DNA from: Gigantopelta aegis
Lineage: Eukaryota > Mollusca > Gastropoda > Neomphalida > Peltospiridae
Reading direction: 5' to 3'
Length of the DNA stretch: 64,000 nt
Assembly (NCBI RefSeq): GCF_016097555.1
Contig: NW_024532987.1
Coordinates: 1 to 64,000, forward strand
The translations under genes were made by a program, and so were the position numbers. The notes beneath the pieces are model-generated. The model searched no databases, was not told the DNA's origin, and saw only the letters and a program-made list of their open reading frames with translations. Of the stretch, positions 25,586-57,395 are shown one piece after another. The number at the start of each line of letters is the position of its first letter. Within the stretch, counting starts at the first letter, position 1.

Positions 25586-27474
25586 CTACATACATGCTTT
25601 AGCATCGGCAGTTTTTAAATACTATAAATCCAAAGGATATTGGGGACAACTCAATATCAGCACCACTAGCTTGATTCTGCGGAGATAAAGTAGGAATGGT
25701 GTCTCCATTAACAAGTTGTAATACCTGACCATTTAGCAACACAACCCTAGTTAAGTAGGAAATTTGATATGAATAGTAAAGTTAATATTACACTCACTGA
25801 GAGGTAATATTGTTAGATGATGGTAACAACCAGTATATATCTCGTTCACTGTTTATTAGTTCACTATTATTAAGATGACTGTTGATATATTATCATTGGT
25901 ATTTAGTAGCATAAGAACTACACTACCTTTGGGATACCTGAATAATTGAATTGAGATATTATAACAACATTGTGTGCTCTATATTAATAAAAGACAAATT
26001 CATGTTGTAGTATATCTTACAGTGGTTTAGCACAGTGGGCATAGACCCTAACATGACGTCCTTTATCAAGAGCTCCTTTTACTTCCAGTACTTGAGTCCC
26101 TACCAATTGTTTATACAATACTGACAACCAAAAGTCCTAATAGAGTGACATAAACAATGTACAAAGTTATATGGAAGTACTTACTGGTAAAAGGGTTTGG
26201 TTAGTGTCAAGTAAGGAATAATGTCCTCCTACAAATGCCTGACGGAATACTTTCTTTTGTGAGTAAGCTGTTATTCCTAATTTATCAAGCCACCTATGTT
26301 TATAAATTAAGCAATTACTTATAATCTACAAATTTATGATTTAGTAATTTATAATATACTTACATAAATCCTGAAATGAAGCTTTCTGAATACAATGCTC
26401 TTCCTCCTCCATAAGTACTAGATGTCTCTCCAAGCCACATGTCATTAGTAAATGATGTTTGCTTTATAATAGATTGTAACTCATTAATCCAATCAAACAA
26501 TTTATCTAAAACATCAACACTATAGAAATCAGATAGTTTTAGCAGTTTCACTGTTTACATAGTAACTACAGAATTGAACCATCAATACAAGAATGTATTG
26601 TACCACTTACCTATGCCATGTTGTAGCATTGATCAAATCAGGGTCTTTCTTAATGTCTTCTAGAAAACTTTTAAAGAGAATTTAAGAGATCAGTATAACA
26701 TGTATTCTTACTCATACAAGTAGCTATTTCTAGATAACGAATGTGATGAAACATCAGGACCAACAACAAGTTTGACTGGATATTGTTTTGATATTAAGAT
26801 TGATCGAAGTTTACGAAATCCATCAGCACCTTGATGACCAGTCACAGTTATATTGAATTTTTCATTGTATGAGTTAGGTTCTATAGACAACATAATAAAT
26901 AAATTAATTATCATTATACTCCATATCACGTCTTACCATTTCCTAGCTCCCAGCTACTTGATATCCCTTCTTCATAGTATAATCAATAAGTTGTTCTGCA
27001 TTACTAGAGTCCCATGATCCATCAGTATTACGTAGTAACTGGTTCAATCCAAATATTAACTTCCAACCTACATTTTGTACAAACGTATTTACAGCATCCC
27101 ATTGTGAAGGTGACATCTTGAAATTAGAGTCCCCCACATTGTCATCGATGTCTCTTTTATAGATCCTATTGTCTCCTTCATTAGGGTCAAAGATGAGGAA
27201 GTCTTCCCTTCTTCCACCAACTCTTAACATAGCTGGATTGAGAGCTTTAGCCATGTTGATTACCTTGGTTGATGTGAAATTAATATCTGACCAATTTCTT
27301 TTGACAGACCCAATACCAATAGTGACTGATAGGAAATCCTCCTCAACTAGACAATGAATTGTATCTAAGGTAACAGAAATGGAGCCAGAGAGAGTTATGA
27401 TCATGTCCTCTCCAGCTGCAAGATAGCATTGGTAGGAGGACAAGGTAGAATATAAATCTTTCCAAAGCTATCAT
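25586..27474 (-). CDS. HPSE: Heparanase 2, tandem copy (glycoside hydrolase family 79), eight exons
   Basis: This copy has the same exon pattern as heparanase 1: 26937-27474, 26712-26880, 26611-26659, 26364-26565, 26185-26293, 26021-26136, 25798-25937, 25586-25746. The preferred start is 27474, giving the hydrophobic signal MIALERFIFYLVLLPMLS; a later in-frame start would lack it. A one-base shift near 27390 separates the signal from SISVTLDTIHCLVEEDF. EPNSYNEKFNITVTGHQGAD and [13 protein letters not shown] carry the two catalytic glutamates. Introns are nearly identical to those of copy 1, so the duplication is recent. The two copies differ mainly in the signal-peptide region and around exon 2. 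Homopolymer changes near the 3' end alter the last few codons. Confidence 0.88.
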
Positions 27475-35900: not shown

Positions 35901-38690
35901 TAGTTTGCTCTGAAAATATAGTTAGTATACAACTTACAACCTTTAGAACATTACAACATCATATTAGCGTCATCATGTGATCTCTAGTAGTTATAAATAG
36001 ACCTACTAAATGTAACAGAATTTAGTTTGCTCTTAAAATATAGTTAGTATACAACTTACAACATTTAAAACATTACATCATATTAACGTCATCATGTGAT
36101 CTCTAGTAGTTATAAATAGACCTACTAAATGTAACAGAATTTAGTTTGCTCTGAAAATATAGTTAGTATACAACTTACAACCTTTAGAACATTACAACAT
36201 CATATTAACGTCATCATGTGATCTCTAGTAGTTATAAATAGACCTACTAAATGTAACAGAATTTAGTTTGCTCTAAAAACATAGTTAGTATACAACTTAC
36301 AACCCTTAGAACATTACAACATCATATTAACGTCATCATGTGATCTCTAGTAGTTATAAATAGACCTACTAAATGTAACAGAATTTAGTTTGCTCTGAAA
36401 ATATAGTTAGTATACAACTTGCAACCTTTAGAACATTACATCATCATATTAACGTCATCATGTGATCTCTAGTAGTTATAAATAGACCTACTAAATGCAA
36501 CAGAATTTAGTTTGCTCTGAAAATATAGTTAGTATACAACTTACAACCCTTAGAACATTACAACATCATACTAACGTCATCATGTGATCTCTAGTAGTTA
36601 TAAATAGACCTACTAAATGTAACAGAATTTAGTTTGCTCTAAAAACATAGTTAGTATAAAACTTACAACCCTTAGAACATTACAACATCATACTAACGTC
36701 ATCATGTGATCTCTAGTAGTTATAAATAGACCTACTAAATGTAACAGAATTTAGTTTGCTCTAAAAACATAGTTAGTATACAACTTACAACCCTTAGAAC
36801 ATTACAACATCATACTAACGTCATCATGTGATCTCTAGTAGTTATAAATAGACCTACAAAATGTAACAGAATTTAGTTTGCTCTAAAAACATAGTTAGTA
36901 TAAAACTTACAACCCTTAGAACATTACAACATCATATTAACGTCATCATGTGATCTCTAGTAGTTATAAATAGACCTACTAAATGTAACAGAATTTAGTT
37001 TGCTCTAAAAAATATAGTTAGTATACAACTTACAACCCTTAGAACATTACAACATCATATTAACGTCATCATGTGATCTCTAGTAGTTATAAATAGACCT
37101 ACTAAATGTAACAGAATTTAGTTTGCTCTGAAAATATAGTTAGTATACAACTTACAACCTTTAGAACATTACAACATCATATTAACGTCATCATGTGATC
37201 TCTAGTAGTTATAAATAGACCTACTAAATGTAACAGAATTTAGTTTGCTCTGAAAATATAGTTAGTATACAACTTACAACCCTTAGAACATTACAACATC
37301 ATATTAATGTCATCATGTGATCTCTAGTAGTTATAAATAGACCTACAAAATGTAACAGAATTTAGTTTGCTCTAAAAACATAGTTAGTATACAACTTACA
37401 ACCCTTAGAACATTACAACATTATATTAACGTCATCATTTGATCTCTAGTAGTTATAAATAGACCTACTAAATGTAAAAGAATTTAGTTTGCTCTAAAAA
37501 TATAGTTAGTATACAACTTACAACCTTTAGAACATTACAACATCATATTAACGTCATCATGTGATCTGTAGTAGTTATAAATAGACCTACTAAATGTAAC
37601 AGAATTTAGTTTGCTCTGAAAATATAGTTAGTATACAACTTACAACCTTTAGAACATTACATCATCATATTAACGTCATCATGTGATCTCTAGTAGTTAT
37701 AAATAGACCTACTAAATGTAACAGAAAAATTTAGTATACAACTTACAACCTTGAGACCTACAAAATGTAACAGAAGTTTAGCTTGCTCTGTAACAGAATT
37801 TAAATATAGTTAGTATACAACTTACAACCTTTAGAACATTACATCATCATGTGATCTCTAGTAGTTATAAATAGACCTACTAAATGTAACAGAATTTAGT
37901 TTGCTCTGAAAATATAGTTAGTATACAACTTACAACCTTTAGAACATTACATCATCATATTAACGTCATCATGTGATCTCTAGTAGTTATAAATAGACCT
38001 ACTAAATGTAACAGAATTTAGCTTTGAGACCCTAGAACATTAAATATTAACGTCATCATGTGATCTCTAGTAGTTATAAATAGACCTGCTAAATGTAACA
38101 GAATTTAGTTTGCTCTGGAAATATAGTTAGTATACAACTTACAACCTTTAGAACATTACATCATCATATTAACGTCATCATGTGATGGTTTTTAGTAGTT
38201 ATAAATAGACCTATTAAATGTAACAGAGTTTTGTTTTTTGAAAATATAGTTAGTATACAACTTACAACCTTTAGAACATTACATCATCATATTAACGGCA
38301 TCATGTGATCTCTAGTAGTTATAAATAGACCTACTAAATGTAACAGAATTTAGTTTGAGACCTACAACCTTTAGAACAGAATTTAGATCTCTAGTAGTTA
38401 TGCTCTACTAAATGTAACAAATTTAGTTTGCTCTAAAAATATAGTTAGTACAGCTTACAACCCTTAGAACATTACATCATATTAACGTCATCATGTGATC
38501 TCTAGTAGTTATAAATAGACCTACTAAATGTAACAGAATTTAGGTTGCTCTAAAAATATAGTTAGTATACAACTTACAACCTTTAGAACATTACATCATC
38601 AGATTGTTTTTAGTAGTTTATAAGTATATTAAAAGTAACAGAATTTGTTTTTTTCTTGAATCATAGTTAGTATACAACTCACAACTCAAT
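32960..38690. repeat. Satellite C, about 45 tandem copies of a 123-bp unit
   Basis: The unit contains, in order, CATCATATTAACGTCATCAT, GTGATCTCTAGTAGTTATAA, ATAGACCTACTAAATGTAAC, AGAATTTAGTTTGCTCTGAA and TAGTTAGTATACAACTTACA. Spacing between copies is 122-124 bp through most of the array. Copies are nearly identical from about 33.0 to 37.7 kb, with variants such as CTCTAAAAACATAG recurring in groups. Beyond 37.7 kb units become truncated and shuffled. The unit has stop codons in all frames. It carries an E-box-type TCATGTGA and a CGTCA half site. Confidence 0.95.
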
Positions 38691-39239
38691 AGTTCATCAT
38701 TAGACTACAGAAAAATAAATAGCTAGTAAAAATAATAATAAATAATAGACTTGACTTACGTATAGTATATCATAGGACTAATAGATCTAGATCATCACAA
38801 GTTGATGCATTATGAGTTACTACAATATTTAAGAGAACAAATAGTAAAACCTTTATTTATAATTCTTATTAACTCACTAGTATCAGAACATTCATTTCCA
38901 GTAGATCACTAACAAATCTAAAGTAGTCCTAAAAAGAAATCCTTTAAAGTATTGAGTTTATAACAGCTCTCACAGTTGACCATTGTCAGTAGACAGTCCT
39001 ACTATAAACTGAAAAATAGTTATTATAACAGTGAAATAAGTATTATTTAAAATTGACAAGTATCTGTTGTATACTAAAATTATGTAATAATTCTAGTGTA
39101 CAACAGTCCATGTCAGTTTTTAGAGATAAAGAGAAGAGCTTGAGAAAGAAGCTAGAGAGAAATTATAGAGATGCAAAGCCAAGTTTAGATGAAAATAAAC
39201 TATGACAAAACGAGATGCTAGAAGGTATTCAGTATTCAT
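38691..39239. other. Unique spacer between satellite C and satellite A
   Basis: This is AT-rich sequence without repeats or recognisable coding. A short stretch at 39110-39200 is purine-rich (GAGAAGAGCTTGAGAAAGAAG). Confidence 0.4.
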
Positions 39240-39790
39240 AACCTTGAGGCCTGAAGAAAATCCCATAATGTCAGTAAATCCTGATGCCAGTAAAATGAAT
39301 CTAAAAGAACAAAGTCGATGCCAGTGAAGAAATAGATGCTTGTAAAACTCTGGAAACTTAAAATCCTGATGCCAGTAAAATGAATCTAAAAAATCCTAGA
39401 TGCCAGTGAAGAGCAAGGTCGATGCCAGTAAAACTCTGGAAACTTAAAATCCTGATGCCAGTAAAATGAATCTAAAAAATCCTAGATGCCAGTGAAGAGC
39501 AAGGTCGATGCCAGTGAAGAAACGGATGCTTGTAAAACTCTGGAAACTTAAATATTGATGCCAGTAAAATGACTAAAAAATCCTAGATGCCAGTGAAGAG
39601 CAAGGTTGATGCCAGTAAAACTCTGGAAACTTAAAATCCTGATGCCAGTAAAATGAATCTAAAAATCCTAGATGCCAGTGAAGAACAAAGTCAATGCCAG
39701 TTAAGAAACAGATGTCAGTAAAACTCTGAAAACTGTAGATGTCATAGCAGTAAAATGGAACTTTAAATGTCATGCCAGTAAGTATAGTGA
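39240..39790. repeat. Satellite A, first block
   Basis: About five irregular copies of the 105-bp GATGCCAGT family appear, recognised by CCTGATGCCAGTAAAATGAA, GATGCCAGTGAAGAGCAAGG and AAACTCTGGAAACTTAAA. Some units are shortened. Confidence 0.9.
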
Positions 39791-41030
39791 CTACATGACA
39801 AAAGAAGGCTAAAAAATTGAGGATTATATGAAATATACAGGAGGTCAACAGGCAAGGATTACATGACAGACAAAGTAGGTTAACAGTTTAAGATTACATG
39901 ACAAACATAGGAGGTAACAGTTAAAAACAGGATTACATGACAAACACAGGAGATTAAGAGTTGAAGATTACATGACAGATACAGAAGGTTAACAGATGTT
40001 AACAATTCAGGATTATATACAGACAAAGGAGGTTTAACAGTTAAGGAATATATCATAGATCAAGGAGTTAACAATTTAGGGTTATTACATGACAAAAACA
40101 GGAGGTTAACAATTAGAATTACACAACAGATACCAAAGGTTAACAGACATTAACAATTCAGTGACAGACAAAGGAGGTTAACAATTTAGGATTACACAAG
40201 AAACACAGGATGTAACAGTTAATGATTACATGACAGATACAGAAACTTAACAGAGATTAACAATTCGAATTACATGACACACAAAGGAGACTGTTAAGGA
40301 ATTATGTTAACAATTTAAGGTTATTAAATGACAAACACAGGACGTTAACAATTAGGGATTACATGACAGACACAGGAACTTGAGGATTACACGGGAGACA
40401 AATGATGTTAACTGTTAAGAATTACGTTACAGACGCAGGAGGTTAACAGTTAAAGATTATATACAAATAAAGGAGGTTAACAGTGGAGGATTACATGACA
40501 GACAAAGTAGGTTAACAGTTTAAGATTACATGACAAACATAGGAGGTAACAGTTAAGAATAACAGGATTACATGACGAACACAGGAGATTCAAGAGTTGA
40601 AGATTACATGACAGATACAGAAGGTTAACAGATGTTAACAATTCAGGATTATATACAGACAAAGGAGGTTTAACAGTTAAGGAATTTATTATAGACAAAG
40701 TAGTTAACAATTTAGGGTTATTACATGACAAAAACAGGAGGTTAACAATTAGAATTACACAACAGATACCAAAGGTTAACAGACGTTAACAATTCAGGAT
40801 TACATGACAGACAAAGGAGGTTAACAATTAGGATTACACAACAAACATAGGAGGTTAATAGTTAAAGATTACATGACATATACAGGAGGCTAACAATTCA
40901 GGATTACATCACAGACGCAAGAGGTTAACAATTTAGGATTACACAAAACACAGGAGTTTAACACTTAAGAATTACATGACGGGCACAGGAGAGTAACAAG
41001 AAAATTAACATTTCAAAATTAGTTTTCGCA
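39791..41030. repeat. Satellite B, first block (GTTAAC minisatellite)
   Basis: Irregular repeats of about 33-40 bp are built from GGATTACATGACAGACACAG and GAGGTTAACAATTCA. A larger segment is itself duplicated: 39850-40140 and 40485-40775 are near-identical. Confidence 0.9.
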
Positions 41031-42475
41031 AGTGACAAGAAAAGGCTAGAACTAACTTCAATATAACGAAGCTAGATGAACCCAGATGCCTGAATAACTG
41101 CAATGAACCCAACCTGACATCTGTTGACACCTGTTGAGATTGCTAGACAGTAGTTACTAATATTATAGTACCAGTGTCATCATCGCAATCATAAAAGACG
41201 GTAACATCAGAAATGTCAGGTAAACAAATTTAAGAATTTTGATGTCATTAAATGATACCAGAAAACAAACCAACATAAAGAGCTTTTGTTAGAACATGAT
41301 ACTCTAGATGCAGAGGACTGAAGTACGAAAAAATCTTGGAGAATGAGTTAAAGATTGACAGAACATACAGTTCATAAGGTAAGTGTTCCAGACAACATGG
41401 AGGTAGTACTATAATTGCTGTAAAACAACAAATGTGATCACAATATCATTAATTTATTGAGCATTATTTTGTTTTAAATACAGAACAAAATACAGAACAA
41501 AACAAAACTTGCTTTACTAAAAAAAGTTTTAATACATCAGAATTATATGGAAAACAACAAGGTTTAAAATACATCAGGACTACATAAAAGGTTTTAATGA
41601 ATTGTGACTATAATCAAGACACTATACAGACACAAGGGTTAATATTTCAGTACTTTTATGACACACACACAAAGGGTTAACTATTCAGGATCGCGTTATA
41701 CAACACATACAACGGGTTGACAGTAATCAGGATTATATGATAAAACAGAAGTTAACTTAGTAATATACAACACACATAAGGGGTTAACACTTCAGGAATA
41801 TATTATATTTGTGAAAATTAGTTTTTAACATAATAGAATTTCACATAGACACAGGAAAACATTTCAAGATTATTATGACACAAAGGGCAAATGGTTTGAA
41901 GGTTAACAAAGGGTTTGACAGCTCAGACATTAGGTTTAATATAAAAAGGAAAAGTCACTGATATACATTCAATACAACATAGGAGGTTATATAATGTTAG
42001 TTTTATAGAGCTATACAAAATTCAAAGATGAACAAGATGGCAGGTAATACAAGGCAAGAAGGAAGTACACAATATAATAACGACAAGACAACATACGACT
42101 TGTTGTTCCATGTGCCTGTTGATCCCCAGACTTATCAACCTCCTACCATCACATTATGCTGTTCATATGCACAATCCACAAACTGATGCCAGACTATACT
42201 CAAGATATTAAGCCGCTCAACCTCAAAATCCAAGCAGATCAAGAACCAGTGAGTGATAAATGTTAAATAATTCTCCAGATCCTCAAGCAGTTACCTATGA
42301 CCAGCATTAGTATTAGATAAACCTACTAAAAGAGACAAAAGTTGTTAGTAGTATATATAGTATAGTACAAGTATTAGTATACAACCATTATCACCTCCAG
42401 AAGTTGAAGGATACTCAACTAGAACATCACAACTATATAATGAAAAGTCAAATATAATTATAAAAGTATATATAA
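41031..42475. repeat. Block U1, unique-looking segment between satellites
   Basis: This segment shares long stretches with U2 (43690-44455) and U3 (56550-57210). It includes 41150-41225, whose minus strand reads FYDCDDDTGTIILVTTV before a stop. It also includes 42027-42270, a plus-strand reading starting MNKMAGNTRQEGSTQYNNDK, which shifts frame relative to U2 and ends near a GTGAGT. Several GTTAAC motifs occur between. No family was recognised. Confidence 0.6.
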
Positions 42476-43170
42476 GTAAAATCTAAAGAATTCTAGATGC
42501 CAGTAAAGAACAAAGTCGATGCCAGTGAAAAAACAGATGCTTGTAAAACTCTGGAAACTTAAAATCCTGATGCCAGTAAAATCAATCTGCAAAATTCTAG
42601 ATGCCAGTGAAGAGCAAAGTCGATGCCAATGAAGAAAAACTCTGGAAACTTAAAATCCTGATGCCAGTAAAATCAATCTAAAGAATCCTAGATGCCAGTA
42701 AAGAACAAAGTCGATGCCAGTGAAGAAAAAGATGCTTGTAAAACTCTGGAAACTTAAAATCCTGATGCCAGTAAAATCAATCTAAAAAAATCCTTGATGC
42801 CAACAAAGAGCAAGGTCGATGCCAGTGAAGAAACAGATGCTTGTAAAACTCTGGAAACTGTAGATGTCATAGCAATAAATCCTGATGCCAGTAAAATCAA
42901 TCTGAAAAATTCTAGATGCCAGTGAAGAGCAAAGTCAATGCCAATGAAGAGACAAACGGTTGTAAAAACTCTGGAAACTTGAAATCCTGATGACAGTAAA
43001 ATGATTCTTAAGAATCCTAGATGCCAGTAAGGAACAAAGTCGATGCCAGTGAAGAAACAGAACTGTAGATGTCATAGCAATAAATCATGATGCCAATAAA
43101 ATGAATCTTGAAAAATTCCAGGTGCCAGTAAAGAAACAGATGCCAGTAAAACTTTGGAAACTATAGACTT
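42476..43170. repeat. Satellite A, second block
   Basis: About six to seven diverged copies of the 105-bp unit are present, with variants such as GATGTCATAGCAATAAATC that are rare in the main array. Confidence 0.9.
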
Positions 43171-43689
43171 CATGGCAGTAACATTAATGATTACATAAAA
43201 GACAAATTAAGTTAACAATTCGGGACTACAGGACAGAAGCAAGAGGTTAAAAATTCAGATTACATGACAAACACTGTTAAGAATTCAAAATAACATAACA
43301 GACACAGGAGGTTAACACCTCAGGATTATATGACAGACACAAGAGGTAAACATTAACCATTACATGACAGAATAAAAAGGTTAACAGTTAAGGATTACAT
43401 AACAAAGAGGTTGTTAACCAGGATGAAATGTTAGAAAACAATTCAAGTTTACATGACAGAGGTTAACAATTTAGGACTACATCAGAAACAAAACGAAGTT
43501 AATTCAGAAATAGATGACAAACACAGGAGGTTAACAGTTAAAGATTTACCAGACAGACAATGGAGGTTAACAATTCAAGATTACATAATAGACAATGGGA
43601 CTTAACAATTCAGGATTACATGGCAAACACAGGAGGTTAACATTTAAAAGGGTACATGACAGACAGCATAAGTTAACAGGATTATTCAG
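43171..43689. repeat. Satellite B, second block
   Basis: These are irregular GTTAAC-type repeats with ACATGACAGACACAGGAGG units like the first B block. No gene is present. Confidence 0.88.
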
Positions 43690-44455
43690 GATTAGAACAT
43701 GATACTTTACATACCAGAGAACTGCACTTAGTAATATACAACACACATAAGGGGTTAACATTTCAGGAATATATTATATTTGTGAAAATTAGTTTTTAAC
43801 ATAATAGAATTTCACATAGACACAGGAGAACATTTCAAGATTATTATGACACAAAGAGCAAATGGTTTGAAGGCTAACAAAGGGTTTGAAGTCTGACATT
43901 AGTTTAATATAAAGAGGAAAAGTCACTGATATACATTCAATACAACATAGGAGGCTATATAATGTTAGTTTTATATAGCTATACAAAATTCAAAGATGAA
44001 CAAGATGGCAAGTAATACAAGGCAAGAAGGAAGTACACAATATAATAACGACAAGACAACATACAACTTGTTGTTCTATGTACCTGTTGATCCCCCAGAC
44101 TTATCAACCTCCTACCATCACATTATGCTGTCCATATGCACAATCCACAAACTGATGCCAGACTATACTCAAGACATTAAGCTGCTCAACCTCAAAATCC
44201 AAGCAGATCAAGAACCAGTAAGTGATAAATGTTAAATAATTCTCCAGACCCTCAAGCAGTTATCTATGACCTGCATTAGTATTAGATAAACCTACTAAAA
44301 GAGACAAAAGTTATTAGCAGTGTATATAGTATAGTACAAGTATTAGTATACAACAATTATCATCTCCAGAAGTTGAAGGACACTCAACTAGAACATCACA
44401 ACTATAGAATGAAAAGTCAAGTCAAATACAATTTTGTAAGTATACATAAAATAAA
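43690..44455. repeat. Block U2, second copy of the U segment
   Basis: About 43725-44455 matches U1 at 41755-42470 with few differences. A plus-strand frame at 43996-44235 (79 codons) begins MNKMASNTRQEGSTQYNNDK and contains PDYTQDIKLLNLKIQADQEP just before a GTAAGT donor-like site. Compared with U1 the frame has one extra C, and differences are G/S, D/N and H/Y plus one silent change, so coding constraint is not evident. I do not recognise the product. Confidence 0.5.
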
Positions 44456-47400
44456 ATCTAAAGTATCTTAAATACCAGTAAAGAACAAAGTTGATGCCAG
44501 TGAAGAAACAGATGCCAGTAAAACTCTGAAAACTGTAGATTTCATAGCAATAAATCCCGATACCAGTAAAAAATCTAAGAACTCCAGATGCCAGTGAAGA
44601 GCAAGGTCGATGCCAGTGAAGAAACAGATGCTTTGTAAAACTCTGGAAACTTTAAAATCTGATGCCAGTAAAATCAATCAAAAAAATCCTAGATGCCAGT
44701 GAAGAAGAGCAAGGTCGATGCCAGTGAAGAAACAGATGCTTTGTAAAACTCTGGAAACTTAAAATCCTGATGACAGTAAAATGAATCTAAAAAATCCTAG
44801 ATGCCAGTGAAGGGCAAGGTCGATGCCAGTGAAGAAACAGATGCTTTGTAAAACTCTGGAAACTTAAAAACCTGATGCCAGTAAAATGAATGTAAAGAAT
44901 CCTAGATGCCAGTGAAGAGCAAGGTCGATGCCAGTGAAGAAACAGATGCTTTGTAAAACTCTGGAAACTTAAAATCCTGACAGTAAAAGAAGCTAAAAAA
45001 TCCTAGATGCCAGTGAAGAGCAAGGTTGATGCCAGTGAAAAACAGATGCTTTGTAAAACTCTGGAAACTTAAATCCTGATGCCAGTAAAAAGAAGCTAAA
45101 AAATCCTAGATGCCAGTGAAGAGCAAGGTCGATGCCAGTGAAGAAACAGATGCTTTGTAAAACTCTGGAAACTTAAAATCCTGATGCCAGTAAAAAGAAG
45201 CTAAAAAATCCTAGATGCCAGTGAAGAGCAAGGTCAATGCCAGTGAAGAAACAGATGCTTTGTAAAACTCTGAAAACTTAAAATCCTGATGCTAGTAAAA
45301 TCAATCTAAAAAATCCTAGATGCCAGTTAAGAGCAAGGTCGATGCCAGTGAAGAAACAGATGCTTTGTAAAACTCTGGAAACTTAAAATCCTGATGCCAG
45401 TAAAATGAATCTAAAGAATCCTAGATGCCAGTGAAGAGCAAGGTCGATGCCAGTGAAAAAACAGATGCTTTGTAAAACTCTGGAAACTTAAAATCCTGAT
45501 GCCAGTAAAATGAATCTAAAAAATCCTAGATGCCAGTGAAGAGCAAGGTCAATGCCAGTGAAGAAACAGATGCTTTGTAAAACTCTGGAAACTTAAAATC
45601 CTGATGCCAGTAAAATGATTCTAAAAATCCTAGATGCCAGTGAAGAGCAAGGTCGATGCCAGTGAAGAAACGGATGCTTTGTAAAACTCTGGAAACTTAA
45701 AATCCTGATGCCAGTAAAAAGAAGCTAAAGAATCCTAGATGCCAGTGAAGAGCAAGGTCGATGCCAGTGAAGAAACAGATGCTTTGTAAAACTCTGGAAA
45801 CTTAAAATCCTGATGCTAGTAAAAAGAATCTAAAAAATCCTATATGCCAGTGAAAAGCAAGGTTGATGCCAGTGAATAAACAGATGCTTTGTAAAACTCT
45901 GGAAACTTAAAATCCTGATGCCAGTAAAAAGAAGCTAAAAAATCCTAGATGCCAGTTAAGAGCAAGGTCGATGCCAGTGAAGAAACAGATGCTTTGTAAA
46001 ACTCTGGAAACTTAAAATCCTGATGCCAGTAAAAAGAATCTAAAAAATCCTAGATGCCAGTGAAGAGCAAGGTCGATGCCAGTGAAGTAACAGATGCTTT
46101 GTAAAACTCTGGAAACTTAAAATCCTGATGCCAGTAAAAAGAATCTAAAAAATCCTAGATGCCAGTGAAGAGCAAGGTTGATGCCAGTGAAGAAACGGAT
46201 GCTTTGTAAAACTTAAAATCCTGATGCCAGTAAAAAGAAGCTAAAAAATCCTAGATGCCAGTGAAGAGCGAGGTCGATGCCAGTGAAGAAACAGATGCTT
46301 TGTAAAACTCTGGAAACTTAAAATCCTGATGCCAGTAAAAGAATCAAGAATCCTAGATGCCAGTGAAGAGCAAGGTGATGCCAGTAAAGAAACAGAAGCT
46401 TTGTAAAACTCTGGAAACTTAAAATCCTGATGCCAGTAAAATGAATCTAAAAAATCCTAGATGCCAGTGAAGAGCAAGGTTGATGCCAGTGAAGAAACAG
46501 ATGCTTTGTAAAACTCTGGAAACTTAAAATCCTGATGCCAGTAAAAAGAAGCTAAAAAATCCTAGATGCCAGTGAAGAGCAAGGTCGATGCCAGTGAAGA
46601 AACAGATGCTTTGTAAAACACTGGAAACTTAAAATCCTGATGCCAGTAAAAAGAAGCTAAAAATCCTAGATGCCAGTGAAGAGCAAGGTTGATGCCAGTG
46701 AAGAAACAGATGCTTTGTAAAACTCTGGAAACTTAAAATCCTGATGCCAGTAAAAAGAAGCTAAAAAATCATAGATGCAAGCTTAAAAATCCTAGATGCA
46801 AGTGAAGAGCAAGGTCGATGCCAGTGAAGAAACAGATGCTTTGTAAAACTCTGGAAACTTAAAATCCTGATGCCAGTAAAATGAATCTAAAAAATCCTAG
46901 ATGCCAGTGAAGAGCAAGGTCGATGCCAGTGAAGAAACGGATGCTCTGTAAAACTCTGGAAACTTAAAATCCTGATGCCAGTAAAAAGAAGCTAAAGAAT
47001 CCTAGATGCCAGTGAAGAGCAAGGTCGATGCCAGTGAAGAAACAGATGCTTTGTAAAACTCTGGAAACTTAAAATCCTGATGCCAGTAAAATGAATCTAA
47101 AAAATCCTAGATGCCAGTGAAGAGCAAGGTCGATGCCAGTGAAGAAACGGATGCTCTGTAAAACTCTGGAAACTTAAAATCCTGATGCCAGTAAAAAGAA
47201 GCTAAAGAATCCTAGATGCCAGTGAAGAGCAAGGTCGATGCCAGTGAAGAAACAGATGCTTTGTAAAACTCTGGAAACTTAAAATCCTGATGCCAGTAAA
47301 ATGAATCTAAAAAATCCTAGATGCCAGTGAAGAGCAAGGTCGATGCCAGTGAAGAAACGGATGCTCTGTAAAACTCTGGAAACTTAAAATCCTGATGCCA

Positions 47401-50400
47401 GTAAAAAGAAGCTAAAGAATCCTAGATGCCAGTGAAGAGCAAGGTCGATGCCAGTGAAGAAACAGATGCTTTGTAAAACTCTGGAAACTTAAAATCCTGA
47501 TGCCAGTAAAATCAATCTAAAAAATCCTAGATCCCATTGAAGAGCAAGGTCGATGCCAGTGAAGAAACAGATGCTTTGTAAAACTCTGGAAACTTAAAAT
47601 CCTGATGCCAGTAAAAAGAAGCTAAAAAATCCTAGATGCCAGTGAAGAGCAAGGTTGATGCCAGTGAAGAAACAGATGCTTTGTAAAACTCTGGAAACTT
47701 AAAATCCTGATGCCAGTAAAAAGAAGCTAAAAAATCCTAGATGCCAGTGAAGAGCAAGGTCGATGCCAGTGAAGAAACAGATGCTTTGTAAAACTCTGGA
47801 AACTTAAAATCCTGATGCCAGTAAAAAGAAGCTAAAAAATCCTAATGCCAGTGAAGAGCAAGGTCAATGCCAGTGAAGAAACAGATGCTTTGTAAAACTC
47901 TGAAAAACTTAAAATCCTGATGCTAGTAAAATCAATCTAAAAAATCCTAGATGCCAGTTAAGAGCAAGGTCGATGCCAGTGAAGAAACAGATGCTTTGTA
48001 AAACTCTGGAAACTTAAAATCCTGATGCCAGTAAAATGAATCTAAAGAATCCTAGATGCCAGTGAAGAGCAAGGTCGATGCCAGTGAAAAAACAGATGCT
48101 TTGTAAAACTCTGGAAACTTAAAATCCTGATGCCAGTAAAATGAATCTAAAAACTCCTAGATGCCAGTGAAGAGCAAGGTCAATGCCAGTGAAGAAACAG
48201 ATGCTTTGTAAAACTCTGGAAACTTAAAATCCTGATGCCAGTAAAATGATTCTAAAAAATCCTAGATGCCAGTGAAGAGCAAGGTCGATGCCAGTGAAGA
48301 AACGGATGCTTTGTAAAACTCTGGAAACTTAAAATCCTGATGCCAGTAAAAAGAAGCTAAAGAATCCTAGATGCCAGTGAAGAGCAAGGTCGATGCCAGT
48401 GAAGAAACAGATGCTTTGTAAAACTCTGGAAACTTAAAATCCTGATGCTAGTAAAAAGAATCTAAAAAATCCTATATGCCAGTGAAAAGCAAGGTTGATG
48501 CCAGTGAATAAATGGATGCTTTGTAAAACTCTGGAATCTTAAAATCCTGATGCCAGTAAAAAGAAGCTAAAAAATCCTAGATGCCAGTGAAGAGCAAGGT
48601 CGATGCAAGTGAAGAAACAGATGCTTTGTAAAACTCTGGAAACTTAAAATCCTGATGCCAGTAAAAAGAAGCTAAAAAATCCTAATGCCAGTGAAGAGCA
48701 AGGTCAATGCCAGTGAAGAAACAGATGCTTTGTAAAACTCTGAAAAACTTAAAATCCTGATGCCAGTAAAATCAATCTAAAAAATCCTAGATGCCAGTTA
48801 AGAGCAAGGTCGATGCCAGTGAAGAAACAGATGCTTTGTAAAACTCTGGAAACTTAAAATCCTGATGCCAGTAAAATGAATCTAAAGAATCCTAGATGCC
48901 AGTGAAGAGCAAGGTCGATGCCAGTGAAAAAACAGATGCTTTGTAAAACTCTGGAAACTTAAAATCCTGATGCCAGTAAAATGAATCTAAAAACTCCTAG
49001 ATGCCAGTGAAGAGCAAGGTCAATGCCAGTGAAGAAACAGATGCTTTGTAAAACTCTGGAAACTTAAAATCCTGATGCCAGTAAAATGATTCTAAAAACT
49101 CCTAGATGCCAGTGAAGAGCAAGGTCGATGCCAGTGAAGAAACGGATGCTTTGTAAAACTCTGGAAACTTAAAATCCTGATGCCAGTAAAAAGAAGCTAA
49201 AGAATCCTAGATGCCAGTGAAGAGCAAGGTCGATGCCAGTGAAGAAACAGATGCTTTGTAAAACTCTGGAAACTTAAAATCCTGATGCTAGTAAAAAGAA
49301 TCTAAAAAATCCTATATGCCAGTGAAAAGCAAGGTTGATGCCAGTGAATAAATGGATGCTTTGTAAAACTCTGGAAACTTAAAATCCTGATGCCAGTAAA
49401 AAGAAGCTAAAAAATCCTAGATGCCAGTTAAGAGCAAGGTCGATGCCAGTGAAGAAACAGATGCTTTGTAAAACTCTGGAAACTTAAAATCCTGATGCCA
49501 GTAAAAAGAATCTAAAAAATCCTAGATGCCAGTGAAGAGCAAGGTCGATGCCAGTGAAGTAACAGATGCTTTGTAAAACTCTGGAAACTTAAAATCCTGA
49601 TGCCAGTAAAAAGAATCTAAAAAATCCTAGATGCCAGTGAAGAGCAAGGTTGATGCCAGTGAAGAAACGGATGCTTTGTAAAACTCTGGAAACTTAAAAT
49701 CCTGATGCCAGTAAAAAGAAGCTAAAAAATCCTAGATGCCAGTGAAGAGCGAGGTCGATGCCAGTGAAGAAACAGATGTTTTGTAAAACTCTGGAAACTT
49801 AAAATCCTGATGCCAGTAAAATCAATCAAGAATCCTAGATGCCAGTGAAGAGCAAGGTTGATGCCAGTAAAGAAACAGAAGCTTTGTAAAACTCTGGAAA
49901 CTTAAAATCCTGATGCCAGTAAAATGAATCTAAAAAATCCTAGATGCCAGTGAAGAGCAAGGTTGATGCCAGTGAAGAAACAGATGCTTTGTAAAACTCT
50001 GGAAACTTAAAATCCTGATGCCAGTAAAAAGAAGCTAAAAAATCCTAGATGCCAGTGAAGAGCAAGGTCGATGCCAGTGAAGAAACAGATGCTTTGTAAA
50101 ACACTGGAAACTTAAAATCCTGATGCCAGTAAAAAGAAGCTAAAAATCCTAGATGCCAGTGAAGAGCAAGGTTGATGCCAGTGAAGAAACAGATGCTTTG
50201 TAAAACTCTGGAAACTTAAAATCCTGATGCCAGTAAAAAGAAGCTAAAAAATCATAGATGCAAGCTTAAAAATCCTAGATGCAAGTGAAGAGCAAGGTCG
50301 ATGCCAGTGAAGAAACAGATGCTTTGTAAAACTCTGGAAACTTAAAATCCTGATGCCAGTAAAATGAATCTAAAAAATCCTAGATGCCAGTGAAGAGCAA

Positions 50401-53400
50401 GGTCGATGCCAGTGAAGAAACGGATGCTCTGTAAAACTCTGGAAACTTAAAATCCTGATGCCAGTAAAAAGAAGCTAAAGAATCCTAGATGCCAGTGAAG
50501 AGCAAGGTCGATGCCAGTGAAGAAACAGATGCTTTGTAAAACTCTGGAAACTTAAAATCCTGATGCCAGTAAAATGAATCTAAAAAATCCTAGATGCCAG
50601 TGAAGAGCAAGGTCGATGCCAGTGAAGAAACGGATGCTCTGTAAAACTCTGGAAACTTAAAATCCTGATGCCAGTAAAAAGAAGCTAAAGAATCCTAGAT
50701 GCCAGTGAAGAGCAAGGTCGATGCCAGTGAAGAAACAGATGCTTTGTAAAACTCTGGAAACTTAAAATCCTGATGCCAGTAAAATGAATCTAAAAAATCC
50801 TAGATGCCAGCGAAGAGCAAGGTCGATGCCAGTGAAGAAACGGATGCTCTGTAAAACTCTGGAAACTTAAAATCCTGATGCCAGTAAAAAGAAGCTAAAG
50901 AATCCTAGATGCCAGTGAAGAGCAAGGTCGATGCCAGTGAAGAAACAGATGCTTTGTAAAACTCTGGAAACTTAAAATCCTGATGCCAGTAAAATCAATC
51001 TAAAAAAATCCTAGATCCCATTGAAGAGCAAGGTCGATGCCAGTGAAGAAACAGATGCTTTGTAAAACTCTGGAAACTTAAAATCCTGATGCCAGTAAAA
51101 AGAAGCTAAAAAATCCTAGATGCCAGTGAAGAGCAAGGTTGATGCCAGTGAAGAAACAGATGCTTTGTAAAACTCTGGAAACTTAAAATCCTGATGCCAG
51201 TAAAAAGAAGCTAAAAAATCCTAGATGCCAGTGAAGAGCAAGGTCGATGCCAGTGAAGAAACAGATGCTTTGTAAAACTCTGGAAACTTAAAATCCTGAT
51301 GCCAGTAAAAAGAAGCTAAAAAATCCTAATGCCAGTGAAGAGCAAGGTCAATGCCAGTGAAGAAACAGATGCTTTGTAAAACTCTGAAAAACTTAAAATC
51401 CTGATGCTAGTAAAATCAATCTAAAAAATCCTAGATGCCAGTTAAGAGCAAGGTCGATGCCAGTGAAGAAACAGATGCTTTGTAAAACTCTGGAAACTTA
51501 AAATCCTGATGCCAGTAAAATGAATCTAAAGAATCCTAGATGCCAGTGAAGAGCAAGGTCGATGCCAGTGAAAAAACAGATGCTTTGTAAAACTCTGGAA
51601 ACTTAAAATCCTGATGCCAGTAAAATGAATCTAAAAACTCCTAGATGCCAGTGAAGAGCAAGGTCAATGCCAGTGAAGAAACGGATGCTTTGTAAAACTC
51701 TGGAAACTTAAAATCCTGATGCCAGTAAAATGATTCTAAAAACTCCTAGATGCCAGTGAAGAGCAAGGTCGATGCCAGTGAAGAAACGGATGCTTTGTAA
51801 AACTCTGGAAACTTAAAATCCTGATGCCAGTAAAAAGAAGCTAAAGAATCCTAGATGCCAGTGAAGAGCAAGGTCGATGCCAGTGAAGAAACAGATGCTT
51901 TGTAAAACTCTGGAAACTTAAAATCCTGATGCTAGTAAAAAGAATCTAAAAAATCCTATATGCCAGTGAAAAGCAAGGTTGATGCCAGTGAATAAATGGA
52001 TGCTTTGTAAAACTCTGGAATCTTAAAATCCTGATGCCAGTAAAAAGAAGCTAAAAAATCCTAGATGCCAGTTAAGAGCAAGGTCGATGCCAGTGAAGAA
52101 ACAGATGCTTTGTAAAACTCTGGAAACTTAAAATCCTGATGCCAGTAAAAAGAATCTAAAAAATCCTAGATGCCAGTGAAGAGCAAGGTCGATGCCAGTG
52201 AAGTAACAGATGCTTTGTAAAACTCTGGAAACTTAAAATCCTGATGCCAGTAAAAAGAATCTAAAAAATCCTAGATGCCAGTGAAGAGCAAGGTTGATGC
52301 CAGTGAAGAAACGGATGCTTTGTAAAACTCTGGAAACTTAAAATCCTGATGCCAGTAAAAAGAAGCTAAAAAATCCTAGATGCCAGTGAAGAGCGAGGTC
52401 GATGCCAGTGAAGAAACAGATGTTTTGTAAAACTCTGGAAACTTAAAATCCTGATGCCAGTAAAATCAATCAAGAATCCTAGATGCCAGTGAAGAGCAAG
52501 GTTGATGCCAGTAAAGAAACAGAAGCTTTGTAAAACTCTGGAAACTTAAAATCCTGATGCCAGTAAAATGAATCTAAAAAATCCTAGATGCCAGTGAAGA
52601 GCAAGGTTGATGCCAGTGAAGAAACAGATGCTTTGTAAAACTCTGGAAACTTAAAATCCTGATGCCAGTAAAAAGAATCTAAAAATCCTAGATGCCAGTG
52701 AAGAGCAAGGTCGATGCCAGTGAAGAAACAGATGCTTTGTAAAACACTGGAAACTTAAAATCCTGATGCCAGTAAAAGAAGCTAAAAATCCTAGATGCCA
52801 GTGAAGAGCAAGGTGATGCCAGTGAAGAAACAGATGCTTTGTAAAACTCTGGAAACTTAAAATCCTGATGCCAGTAAAAAGAAGCTAAAAAATCATAGAT
52901 GCAAGCTTAAAAATCCTAGATGCAAGTGAAGAGCAAGGTCGATGCCAGTGAAGAAACAGATGCTTTGTAAAACTCTGGAAACTTAAAATCCTGATGCCAG
53001 TAAAATGAATCTAAAAACTCCTAGATGCCAGTGAAGAGCAAGGTCGATGCCAGTGAAGAAACGGATGCTCTGTAAAACTCTGGAAACTTAAAATCCTGAT
53101 GCCAGTAAAAAGAAGCTAAAGAATCCTAGATGCCAGTGAAGAGCAAGGTCGATGCCAGTGAAGAAACAGATGCTTTGTAAAACTCTGGAAACTTAAAATC
53201 CTGATGCCAGTAAAATGAATCTAAAAAATCCTAGATGCCAGTGAAGAGCAAGGTCGATGCCAGTGAAGAAACGGATGCTCTGTAAAACTCTGGAAACTTA
53301 AAATCCTGATGCCAGTAAAAAGAAGCTAAAGAATCCTAGATGCCAGTGAAGAGCAAGGTCGATGCCAGTGAAGAAACAGATGCTTTGTAAAACTCTGGAA

Positions 53401-55185
53401 ACTTAAAATCCTGATGCCAGTAAAATGAATCTAAAAAATCCTAGATGCCAGTGAAGAGCAAGGTCGATGCCAGTGAAGAAACGATGCTCTGTAAAACTCT
53501 GGAAACTTAAAATCCTGATGCCAGTAAAAAGAAGCTAAAGAATCCTAGATGCCAGTGAAGAGCAAGGTCGATGCCAGTGAAGAAACAGATGCTTTGTAAA
53601 ACTCTGGAAACTTAAAATCCTGATGCCAGTAAAATGAATCTAAAGAATCCTAGATGCCAGTGAAGAGAAAGGTTGATGCCAGTGAAGAAACAGATGCTTT
53701 GTAAAACTCTGGAATCTTAAAATCCTGATGCCAGTAAAATGAATCTAAAAAATCCTAGATGCCAGTGAAGAGCAAGGTCGATGCCAGTGAAGAAACAGAT
53801 GCTTTGTAAAACTCTGGAAACTTAAAATCCTGATGCCAGTAAAATGAATCTAAAAAATCCTAGATGCCAGTGAAGAGCAAGGTCGATGCCAGTGAAGAAA
53901 CGGATGCTCTGTAAAACTCTGGAAACTTAAAATCCTGATGCTAGTAAAAAGAAGCTAAAGAATCCTAGATGCCAGTGAAGAGCAAGGTCGATGCCAGTGA
54001 AGAAACAGATGCTTTGTAAAACTCTGGAAACTTAAAATCCTGATGCCAGTAAAATGAATCTAAAGAATCCTAGATGCCAGTGAAGAGAAAGGTTGATGCC
54101 AGTGAAGAAACAGATGCTTTGTAAAACTCTGGAATCTTAAAATCCTGATGCCAGTAAAATGAATCTAAAAAATCCTAGATGCCAGTGAAGAGCAAGGTCG
54201 ATGCCAGTGAAGAAACAGATGCTTTGTAAAACTCTGGAAACTTAAAATCCTGATGCCAGTAAAATCAATCTAAAAAATCCTAGATCCCATTGAAGAGCAA
54301 GGTCGATGCCAGTGAAGAAACAGATGCTTTGTAAAACTCTGGAAACTTAAAATCCTGATGCCAGTAAAAAGAAGCTAAAAAATCCTAGATGCCAGTGAAG
54401 AGCAAGGTTGATGCCAGTGAAGAAACAGATGCTTTGTAAAACTCTGGAAACTTAAAATCCTGATGCCAGTAAAAAGAAGCTAAAAATCCTAGATGCCAGT
54501 GAAGAGCAAGGTGATGCCAGTGAAGAAACAGATGCTTTGTAAATCTCAGGAAACTTAAAATCCTGATGCCAGTAAAAAGAAGCTAAAGAATCCTAGATGC
54601 CAGTGAAGAGCAAGGTCGATGCCAGTGAAGAAACGGATGCTTTGTAAAACTCTGGAAACTTAAAATCCTGATGACAATAAAAAGAAGCTAAAGAATCCTA
54701 GATGCCAGTGAAGAGCAAGGTCGATGCCAGTGAAGAAACAGATGCTTTGTAAAACTCTGGAAACTTAAAATCCTGATGCCAGTAAAAAGAATCTAAAAAA
54801 TCCTAGATGCCAGTGAAGAGCAAGGTTGATGCCAGTGAAGAAACAGATGCTTTGTAAAACTCTGGAAACTTAAAATCCTGATGCCAGTAAAAAGAAGCTA
54901 AAAAATCCTAGATGCCAGTGAAGAGCAAGGTCGATGCCAGTGAAGAAACAGATGCTTTGTAAATCTCAGGAAACTTAAAATCCTGATGCCAGTAAAAAGA
55001 AGCTAAAGAATCCTAGATGCCAGTGAAGAGCAAGGTCGATGCCAGTGAAGAAGCAGATGCTTTGTAAATCTCTGGAAACTTAAAATCCTGATGACAGTAA
55101 AAAGAAGCTAAAGAATCCTAGATGCTAGTGAAGAGCAAGGTCGATGCCAGTGAAGAAACAGATGCTTTGTAAAACTTGGAAACTA
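44456..55185. repeat. Satellite A main array, about 100 copies of a 105-bp unit
   Basis: The unit joins three blocks that each start with GATGCCAGT: CCTGATGCCAGTAAAATGAA, CCTAGATGCCAGTGAAGAGC and GATGCCAGTGAAGAAACAGA, followed by TGCTTTGTAAAACTCTGGAA and ACTTAAAAT. The monomer thus grew from a shorter repeat. Spacing is 105 bp with rare 103-106 bp copies. Stops interrupt every frame. Two monomer types alternate as 210-bp dimers in places (46.9-47.5, 50.4-51.0 and 53.0-53.6 kb). The array shows higher-order structure, listed separately. Confidence 0.95.
45269..54540. repeat. Higher-order repeat of about 2.64 kb within satellite A
   Basis: Rare variant monomers recur at fixed distances. TGAAAA-ACTTAAAATCC variants start near 45269, 47900, 48740 and 51383. 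TATATGCCAGTGAAAAGC starts at 45841, 48473, 49313 and 51957. AATCATAGATGCAAGCTTAA starts near 46768, 50251 and 52892. GATCCCATTGAAG starts at 47530, 51014 and 54283. The distances are about 2.63-2.64 kb (25 monomers), except for an additional 840-bp step (eight monomers) after 47.9 kb and a gain of about 630 bp (six monomers) in the third copy. Confidence 0.9.
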
Positions 55186-56540
55186 TAGACTTCATGGCAG
55201 TAACATTATGATTACATAACAGACAAATTAAGTCAACAATTCCGGACTACAGGACAGACGCAAGAGGTTAACAATTCAGGATTACGTGCCGAACACTGTT
55301 AAGGATTACATGACAAACAAACAAAGTTAATAATTCAAAATAACACAGACACAGGAGGTTAACGTTAAGGATTACAGACAAAGGAGGTTAACAACTCAGT
55401 ATTATATGACAGACACGAGGTAAACAATTAACCATTACATGACAGACTAAGAAGGTTAACAGTTAAGGATTACATGACAAACAGGTTGTTAACCAGGATG
55501 AAATGATAGAAGAGGTTATCAATTCATGTTTACATGACAGAGATTAACAATTTAGAACTACATAAGAAACAAAGGAGATTAACAATTCAGGAATTGATGA
55601 CAGGATACAGGAGGTTAACAGTTTGATTTACCAGACAGGATACAGGAGATTAACAATTCAAGATTACATAATAGACAATGGGGGTTAGGATTACATGACA
55701 AACATAGGAGGTTAACAGTTAAAAGATTACATGACAGACAACACAAGTTAACAATTCAGGATTAGATTATAAACGCAGTAAGAAACACAGTAAGTTAACA
55801 ATTCAAAAGAAGTTAACAATTCAGGATTACATTACGGACACAGAAAGTTAAGGAAGATCTCATTATTACATGACAGACAAAGAAGTTAACAAGTCAGGAT
55901 TACATTACAAACACAGTAAGTTAACTGTTCAAGTTAACAATTCAGGATTACATTACAAACACAGTTAAGTTAACAATTCAAAGAAGTTGACAATTCAGGA
56001 TTATATTACAAATACAGTAAGTTAACTGTTCAAGTTAACAATTCAGGATTACATTACAAACACAGTAAGTTAACTGTTGAAGTTAACAATTCAGGATTAC
56101 ATTACAAACACAGTAAGTTAACTGTTCTTAACAATTCAGGATTACATTACAAACACAGTAAGTTAACAATTCAAATAAGTTAACAATTCAGGATTACATT
56201 ACAAACTCAGTAAGTTAACTGTTCAAGTTAACAATTCAGGATTACATTACAAACACAGTAAGTTAACAATTCAAAGAAGTTAACAATTCATGATTACATT
56301 ACAGACACAGAAAGTTAAGAAGATTTCATTATTACATGACAGACAAAGGAGGTTAACAATTCAGGATTATACAACAAACACAGGAGGTTAATGGTTAAAG
56401 ATTACGTGATTATTAGACAGCAGAGGTTAACAAATTAAGAATGGGCACTGAAGATTAATAACAATTCAGGATTATATGAGAATTAACATTTGAAAATTTA
56501 TAACTTTTCAAAATTATAAGAGTGACAGAAAAGGTTACCA
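55186..56540. repeat. Satellite B, third block with a regular sub-array
   Basis: GTTAAC-type repeats resume at the end of the A array. Between about 55.74 and 56.33 kb they become a regular array of roughly 48 bp (CAGGATTACATTACAAACAC, AGTAAGTTAACTGTTCAAG), about eight to ten copies. No gene is present. Confidence 0.9.
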
Positions 56541-57214
56541 ATTCAGGAAAAAAACAACAGACACAGAACTGAACTACAATATAACTTAACATCTGTTAAA
56601 ATTGCTACATAAGCTAAATGAACCTAGTTGCCTGAAAAACTGTGATGTATTGCCTGAAAAACCATGATGTAAGTTGACACCTGTGTAGATTGCTTGATGA
56701 AACCTAGATGCCTGAAAAACTGCAATGTAACTTGACTGTGTAGATTACTAGATGAATCCAGATGCCTTAAAAAGATCTGTTGTGATTGCTAGACAGTAGT
56801 TACTAATATTATAGTACCAGTGTCATCATCGCAATCATAGAAGATGGTAATATCAGAAATCTCAGATCAACAAAGTCGAAGAGTGTAGAAGATGAAACCA
56901 ATGTTAGAACATGATACTTTACATACCAGAGAACTGAACTTCATATTTTAGGGGTTAACATTTCAGGAATATATTATATTTGTGAAAATTAGTTTAACAT
57001 AATAAAATTTCACATAGACATAGAGAGAACATTTCAAGATTACTATGACACAAACAAAGGGCAAAGGATTTAAAGGCTAACAAAGGGTTTGAAGTCTGAC
57101 ATTAGATTTAATGTAAAGAGTAAAAGTCACTGATATACATTCAATACAACATAGGAGGTTATATAATGTTAGTTTTACATAACTATACAAAATTCAAAGA
57201 TGAACAATATAGGA
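56541..57214. repeat. Block U3, third and shortened copy of the U segment
   Basis: 56788-56870 matches U1 at 41150-41225 and 56900-57205 matches the start of U2. The copy ends within the region where U1 and U2 begin the MNKMA frame and joins directly to a satellite C remnant at 57215. Confidence 0.75.
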
Positions 57215-57395
57215 AGTAATAACAGAGTTTGTTTTGTTCTTAAATTATAGTTAGTATACTACTCACAACTGTTAGAACAAAAGATCACTATACTGACGTC
57301 ATCAAATCATCTCTACTAGTTATGAATAGACCTACTAAAGGTAACTAGTTGGCTCTAGAATTATAGTTAGTGTAATACTTACAACTTATAACAAA
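57215..57395. repeat. Two diverged units of satellite C
   Basis: Pieces such as TTATAGTTAGTATACTACTC, ACGTCATC and TAGACCTACTAAAGGTAAC are degenerate copies of the 123-bp unit. They lie on the far side of the A/B/U block in the same orientation as the main C array. Confidence 0.85.

Follow-up and report, generated by a model that had tools for sequence, protein, structure and literature searches.

The question raised by this locus is whether a tandem array with several nested repeat lengths is a fragment of a centromere-type satellite or a repeat that grew in one place. The window, i.e. the whole stretch of 64,000 nucleotides analysed, is the first part of a single contig in the assembly of Gigantopelta aegis, and all coordinates below are window positions, with features given on the plus strand. 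The main array at 44,449–55,184 (10.7 kb) is built up of some 100 monomers from a GATGCCAGT family with a unit of 105 bp. Tandem Repeats Finder reported a period of 105 and its multiples over 44,552–55,184; the extent given by the original prediction (45,269–54,540) is too short. Cut at a single anchor, the array yields 100 monomers, most of them 103–107 bp long and with 52 distinct sequences among them, which share a mean identity of 92.8%. The consensus monomer contains four GATGC words with uneven spacings of 31, 22, 18 and 34 bp, showing that the GATGCCAGT sub-repeat is present, yet degenerate.

The identity between monomers is flat over lags of 1–69 (about 92.4–93.4%), save for three peaks at lag 25 (95.4%), lag 33 (95.9%) and lag 58 (95.7%). 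When the order of the monomers was permuted (2,000 shuffles with 90 of the 100 monomers, taking the highest value among lags 20–39), the maximum reached was 94.7% against 96.5% observed, and none of the shuffles attained the observed value. Furthermore, copies of the blocks are 99.4–100% identical when gaps are set aside, compared with the 92.8% among monomers. Identity between blocks is well above that between monomers and the block order recurs beyond chance, as expected of a higher-order repeat. These observations demonstrate that the predicted nested higher-order repeat is real.

The same period was followed along the array using nine variant words. Six of these make two steps. The first measures 3,472–3,484 bp in all six; the second is 2,641–2,644 bp for five words and 3,269 bp for the sixth, GATCCCATTG. 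The remaining three make steps of 2,631–2,632, 840 and 2,644 bp. It follows that both the 2.64-kb period and the common extra 840 bp are real, confirming the claim that variant monomers recur at about 2.64 kb with an additional 840 bp in one block. Marker monomers of 126 bp start at 46,718, 50,201 and 52,842. Each is made by a 21-bp tandem duplication (2.1 copies; 46,758–46,802, 50,241–50,285 and 52,882–52,926), and since one monomer has this length, 25 monomers total about 2,644 bp.

From left to right the array comprises an outer, truncated block A (44,638–46,717), block B (46,718–50,200; 3,483 bp and 33 monomers, or 25 + 8), block C (50,201–52,841; 2,641 bp and 25 monomers) and a partial block D (52,842–54,436). 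Only B and C are complete. Block B holds the 840-bp, 8-monomer duplication, whose first (47,789–48,628) and second (48,629–49,468) copies are identical at 835 of 840 positions, while block D has its own 4-monomer duplication of 420 bp (53,597–54,016 and 54,017–54,436), with 412 of 420 positions identical. Blocks A and C differ by eight substitutions and nine gaps. The last monomer of the first 840-bp copy, m037, has a left-half variant in common with block C and right-half letters of its own (columns 749, 801 and 819), and judged by these letters it looks like a junction.

A 210-bp dimer was also among the predicted layers. It is present locally around monomers m021–m026, where monomers two apart are 100% identical and neighbouring ones 95.2%, but does not constitute an array-wide level, as two other stretches tested have no lag-2 excess (92.7% vs 93.4% and 92.2% vs 93.4%). 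The suggestion that the octamer was duplicated last found no support either. Between the two copies of the 840-bp segment there are 5 differences in 840 positions, against 2 in 1,800 between the flanks of B and C (Fisher p = 0.037, for a comparison chosen after seeing the data), and the octamer duplication, being more diverged, need not be the last event.

A search of the assembly (1.149 Gb, 5,216 contigs) with a 39-base core, allowing up to three mismatches, returned 95 matches, all of which are in this 64.9-kb contig. The genome-wide search that had been suggested for the 105-bp unit therefore does not support a satellite in the centromeric sense. The restriction to one contig applies to assembled sequence, and further copies may be collapsed or unassembled. 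Within the assembly, a genome-wide 105-bp satellite was rejected. A centromeric satellite is abundant and found on many or all chromosomes, which the unit is not in assembled sequence; a single-locus tandem array of 10.7 kb on one contig falls within the range of locus-specific minisatellites and macrosatellites (0.5–30 kb). A DNA search with 211 bp, by a method that skips very common words and scored two of three candidates, hit this contig alone, at six places. A looser pattern, in which two GATGCCAGT words are combined with one GATGC (spacers of 4–24), occurred at 233 places, 160 of them in the window. Outside the window 66 places were listed and seven were not; 61 of those listed, on C3, C4, C8 and C14, are shorter units with no relationship apparent by eye, whereas the five on C660 are related. 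Because the reversed pattern, used as a control, occurred at 25 places, the looser pattern also catches unrelated minisatellites.

The main array is surrounded by other repeats. Two short diverged blocks of the 105-bp family (39,283–39,757 and 42,480–43,134) lie 5 and 2 kb to its left. One of the three variant words with three steps recurs at 42,525, inside the second of these outlying blocks. A 35-bp GTTAACAATTCAGGATTACA-type repeat forms blocks at 39,812–40,999, at 43,179–43,665 and, right of the main array, at 55,210–56,548. The spacer module S is found at 41,747–42,463, at 43,697–44,427 immediately left of the main array (95.3% identity between these two copies over 706 columns), and as a truncated third copy, followed by a single 122-bp-type unit, at 56,909–57,221. 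Module E is located at 38,594–39,141, and copies on other contigs are 71–78% identical to it. Repeat finding also revealed a 122-bp satellite array (32,969–38,685). The unit amplified in it is related to the start of module E, and C725, C1219 and C2001 also carry related units. Splice-like GTAAGT words were observed on the minus strand of module E units.

Matches to E or S are present on a further 21 contigs, five of which carry the modules in the order E-S-E in one orientation (C660, three times, C700, C1656, C2478 and C2537). Most E matches end at query position 543–556, and five aligned copies stay similar for some 20–30 bases further. Two of the five E-S-E contigs, C660 and C2537, were read in part, and in both a simple GATGCCAGT minisatellite of 32–33 bp follows module E and an ATC-rich microsatellite follows S. 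The simple arrays adjoining related modules on these two contigs support the prediction that the monomers grew from a GATGCCAGT sub-repeat. At other loci different modules were amplified, such as the 122-bp unit on C725 and C1219; two pieces of C1219 (L054 and L056) have no GATGCCAGT word.

None of the listed E and S matches is on chromosomes C1–C15. The contig thus looks foreign to the chromosomes of its own assembly and may be derived from a second organism. A sponge is a possible, if speculative, source. For the chromosomes, as distinct from this contig, C6 carries a COX1 gene (Pfam) beside genes read by eye as NAD2, NAD3 and COX3, and their code and gene order look bilaterian and mollusc-like. 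Since the contig may belong to an organism other than that of the chromosomes, claims tied to a species need care.

We propose that the array is probably a non-coding, locus-specific minisatellite that grew within a dispersed composite repeat through local out-of-register exchange. The composite repeat, consisting of module E, the 35-bp block, spacer S and a GATGCCAGT minisatellite of ~32 bp, would be dispersed at many places among the contigs, and at this locus the GATGCCAGT block would have given rise to the 105-bp unit. Repeated out-of-register exchange, by unequal crossing over, replication slippage or gene conversion, may then have expanded a handful of copies of this unit to about 100. 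Once the monomers had diverged, larger out-of-register steps would have copied blocks of 25, 8 and 4 monomers and left the higher-order pattern. The 105-bp unit probably derives from the simple 32–33-bp minisatellite, with 32 bp to 105 bp as the presumed direction, and the array is presumably without function. This proposal is favoured by the preservation of monomer register in the steps of 25, 8 and 4 monomers, and by the first five monomers of the array being the most diverged (93.0% identity to the consensus against 94.7–97.1% in the other five stretches). Three observations speak against it. Right-end monomers (96.2% to the consensus) are no more diverged than the centre, leaving an edge gradient on the left only; no one simple order fits all the sites that distinguish A, B1, B2 and C; and open stretches of 104 and 105 aa on the minus strand (39,576–39,887 and 42,757–43,071) overlap the short diverged blocks.

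As higher-order repeats are widespread, with clear cases in 76 of 171 plant and animal species with Sanger data in Melters et al. 2013 (PMC4053949), the novelty by rarity that was originally claimed is not supported and novelty is low. For sponges, none was found in the open-licence literature judged by titles and the starts of abstracts, a weak negative. The repeat is, in this assembly, a single local array rather than a genome-wide satellite of centromere type. As in alpha satellite and the satellites of many animals and plants described in the same source, several diverged monomers together make up a block, and copies of this block are more alike than the monomers within it; blocks with truncated monomers are known from switchgrass (PMC4053949). 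Unlike those satellites, there are here about 100 monomers in one contig, about three block copies, other repeats flanking them, and no sign in the assembly of a genome-wide or centromeric satellite. The array resembles minisatellites, VNTRs and macrosatellites in being a local array of variant repeats within 0.5–30 kb, but has a unit of 105 bp, compared with the ~15 bp given for minisatellites in PMC8122249, and a regular 25-monomer order.

Knowledge of centromeres is unchanged by the array. It offers a small, readable case of how a short minisatellite can lengthen its unit and afterwards build up a layered array. Furthermore, an apparently simpler state persists beside related modules in the same assembly, so the order in which the steps occurred can be tested without recourse to a centromere. 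More tentatively, the composite repeat could be a seed bed for satellites, in which the unrelated 122-bp, 35-bp and GATGCCAGT modules are amplified independently at different loci, one of them reaching higher-order organisation; we would not count on this. If true, early steps of satellite birth would be readable across copies within one non-model animal genome.

Among the alternatives, a mobile origin of the composite repeat survives best, and as it concerns the carrier it can be compatible with the proposed local growth. The repeat may be a non-autonomous, Helentron/HINE-like element with the E and S modules as its copies and the array as an internal tandem repeat, a possibility we regard as real, though doubtful. 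The presence of E or S on 21 other contigs, with one order and orientation on five, is consistent with it, but tandem or segmental duplication accounts for the copies equally well. The Cg_HINE elements of the Pacific oyster have satellite-like arrays between conserved modules and a 3' palindrome (PMC7492417); similarly, tandem arrays here lie within conserved dispersed modules, a palindrome is near a module end, and an ATC-rich microsatellite follows S on C2537 and C660. In the window copy the palindrome (39,064–39,106), some 36 bases inside the right edge of module E, gives a strong hairpin (z −5.71, none of 200 shuffles as good), whereas the fold is weak in the four other copies folded (z −0.07, −0.96, −1.40 and −1.03). 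Unlike in Cg_HINE, neither element ends nor subterminal inverted repeats were found, target duplications were not identified, and three unrelated tandem families occur together. The main array, moreover, lies between S and a 35-bp block and does not adjoin E.

It is unlikely that the array is a small assembled piece of a centromeric or pericentromeric higher-order satellite whose remainder is collapsed or missing. In favour of this reading, centromeric higher-order repeats are layered in a similar way, the contig has a short length of 64,901 bp and the 122-bp array is about 6 kb from the main array. Large amounts of such a satellite would, however, predict other contigs of the 105-bp unit, and the core matches are confined to this one. 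Other sequence bounds the array on both sides within the contig, and carbonic anhydrase-, heparanase- and SRCR-like exons are found elsewhere in the window.

We consider it quite improbable that the 2.64-kb and 840-bp copies were made or miscounted by the assembler. Copies that are >99% identical are hard to resolve with inaccurate reads, and a piece of C799 reads with frame changes, suggesting that some contigs may be poorly polished. The private differences between the copies, both between the 840-bp duplicates and between A and C, nevertheless indicate that the assembler told them apart, and the window contains no Ns.

Finally, there is very little chance that the array is part of a gene, as tandem exons or a repetitive non-coding RNA of the minus strand: 105 is a multiple of three, and the minus-strand open stretches and GTAAGT words described above would fit, but every one of the six frames of the consensus monomer contains between one and four stops, for which reason a coding array was rejected, and the array contains no ORF of at least 150 aa.

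Tandem Repeats Finder assigned a period of 105 bp and its multiples to 44,552-55,184 of the window and also reported short blocks belonging to this family at 39,276-39,734 and 42,518-43,061. Self-comparison showed that exact 60-mers within the array recur most commonly at distances of 210, 2,644 and 3,483 bp. Cutting the array at one anchor yielded 100 monomers, and their alignment revealed one ordered series of variants recurring in four blocks (A-D), two of them complete and two partial, with one 126-bp monomer per block (starts at 46,718, 50,201 and 52,842). Six of nine marker words take a first step of 3,472-3,484 bp, followed by 2,641-2,644 bp in five of them and 3,269 bp in GATCCCATTG, whose last copy is placed past the changes in block D. 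The other three recur at steps of 2,631-2,632, 840 and 2,644 bp. None of 2,000 shuffles of monomer order reached the observed lag identity. The marker steps and this control bear out the original prediction that variant monomers recur at about 2.64 kb, and the 840-bp and 3,472-3,484-bp steps confirm the extra 840 bp in one block copy. A 210-bp dimer had also been proposed; it is present in one six-monomer stretch per block, but confined to that stretch.

Block B (46,718-50,200) is complete with 33 monomers, and block C (50,201-52,841) with 25. Apart from the duplication, the aligned bases of the two blocks show 1 difference in 1,071 and 1 in 729. Between the two 840-bp copies, 5 of 840 positions differ; compared with C, the first copy has four differences and the second three. 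Duplication of the octamer had been placed last in the history of the array. The greater divergence of the 840-bp copies (5/840) than of the B/C flanks (2/1,800) speaks against this order, weakly and in a comparison picked post hoc (Fisher test, p = 0.037). A variant at alignment column 749 is common to the first 840-bp copy and C, one at column 471 to the second copy and C, and A sides alternately with the first or second copy at variant sites. Whatever the order, such conflicting sharing requires that the copies have exchanged sequence or converted one another.

Unequal crossing over, slippage or gene conversion within a diverging tandem array would yield a layered pattern of this kind. Block steps that stay in register, a junction monomer of hybrid appearance and the high identity of recently copied blocks all fit such processes, and no observation on the array requires a function. 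Higher-order repeats, described in the original prediction as well known from centromeres of mammals and some other animals, are reported from 76 of 171 species (PMC4053949). The class is therefore ordinary, and the array a well-resolved further example of it. The more interesting part is a dispersed composite repeat outside the region first singled out.

The leftmost of the repeats in this part of the window is a 122-bp array (32,969-38,685), followed by module E (38,594-39,141). Rightward come a GATGCCAGT block, a 35-bp block and the spacer module S; another GATGCCAGT block, 35-bp block and S; and then the main array with a further 35-bp block, after which S appears a third time, truncated, and a single unit of the 122-bp type closes the row. 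The first two S copies are 95.3% identical over 706 columns, the third 88-89% over about 270-330 columns. By this order, the series of GATGCCAGT block, 35-bp block and S occurs three times, and among these three expansion is seen in the third GATGCCAGT block only. The 122-bp array holds ~44 units, related to the start of E. Module E (also at 217-1277 and 2186-3298 of the contig piece L077) itself looks like a degenerate tandem with units of roughly 63-132 bp, many carrying the 5′ splice-site-like word GTAAGT on the minus strand.

The assembly searched comprises 1.149 Gb in 5,216 contigs, and the window is nearly all of C824 (64,901 bp). With up to 3 mismatches, a 39-base core gave 95 forward matches in the whole assembly, all in C824, and no reverse-strand match. 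A 5.85-kb query of E and S matched at least 21 other contigs (111 matches listed), a lower bound with 39 of 116 candidates scored. Among the matches listed, identity is 71-78% for E copies elsewhere and 71-73% for S copies, but 86% on C1219; the order E-S-E occurs in a single orientation on C660 (three times), C700, C1656, C2478 and C2537, with a distance of about 2 kb between the paired E copies (4.4 kb on C1656). Portions of two of the five, C660:142,001-148,500 and C2537:3,801-7,700, were read. In each, the modules follow one another as E, S, E, with a 32-33-bp GATGCCAGT array next; the first E is separated from S by a 35-bp-type block on C660 and by what is left of such a block on C2537. 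From this simple array beside E, the best evidence on the point, we infer that the 105-bp unit arose secondarily from a simpler GATGCCAGT repeat. One piece of C1219 (L054) carries S and 122-bp units, and the GATGCCAGT word is absent from it and from a second piece (L056). The 122-bp core was found at 162 places, about 100 of them listed, on C725, C824 and C1219; among those listed, C725 carries it in opposite orientations (minus at 61.6-69.2 kb, plus at 70.6-77.5 kb). Amplification seems to have acted on different tandem modules of the composite repeat from one locus to another.

Module E has a palindrome at 39,064-39,106, ending about 36 bases short of its right edge. Folded with both arms it reached z -5.71, equalled by 0 of 200 shuffles, whereas the folds in four other E copies hardly beat shuffles (z -0.07 to -1.40). 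In the oyster, Cg_HINE elements are described as having a 3′ palindrome and carrying satellite-like arrays (PMC7492417). The palindrome near the edge of E recalls them, although the hairpin is strong in the window copy alone of the five folded. By analogy, the composite repeat is a possible, tentative candidate for a Cg_HINE-like carrier.

All listed matches of the 122-bp core and of the E and S searches lie on contigs numbered C255 or higher. None of those listed is on the chromosomes (C1-C15); two of the searches list part of their matches and two scored 39 candidates each, so the modules may still occur there. The chromosomes matched a 7.5-kb stretch of the window at an AG microsatellite only (40 of 163 candidates scored), and the window's carbonic anhydrase exon matched only itself (11 of 11 scored). 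A search for 18S end motifs gave ten places: six contigs share one motif, C4817 has a one-base variant of it, C4 a degenerate pair and C811 (L073) a different motif. The C811 locus has 74-81% aligned identity to the first six, which are mutually 77-94% identical, spacers included; as these six differ among themselves, several may be pseudogenes or stem from further organisms. Rfam recognised eukaryotic 18S in all five of the ten places scanned. Exons of the RNA polymerase second subunit span about 17, 11 and 7 kb on C4, C9 and C10, and 1.1 kb on C799, where the piece (L078, C799:121951-123200) has an RNA polymerase III subunit, RPC2, as its nearest PDB match and shows frame changes. Together these findings suggest that the assembly holds a second, compact eukaryote, to which C824 may belong; they do not prove a common owner of C824, C811 and C799. 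Exons in the window that resemble SRCR, heparanase and carbonic anhydrase fit an animal as owner of C824, and a sponge is a plausible candidate. Sponges have many SRCR genes.

Within a 102.9-Mb scaffold, C6:42725000-42734900 (L041) carries mitochondrial COX1 (Pfam) beside NAD2, NAD3 and COX3, assigned by eye and open under the invertebrate code, which is either a nuclear copy or a misjoin. In the window, SRCR-like exons lie on the minus strand at 10,064-10,306 and, twice, at 60.4-61.2 kb, one of the three above the Pfam cut-off. Segments of up to about 1 kb recur at 1300-10700 in several diverged copies (about 69-81%), and on the minus strand part of a heparanase-like (GH79) gene is tandemly duplicated (23524-25416 and 25581-27474, 90.6%).
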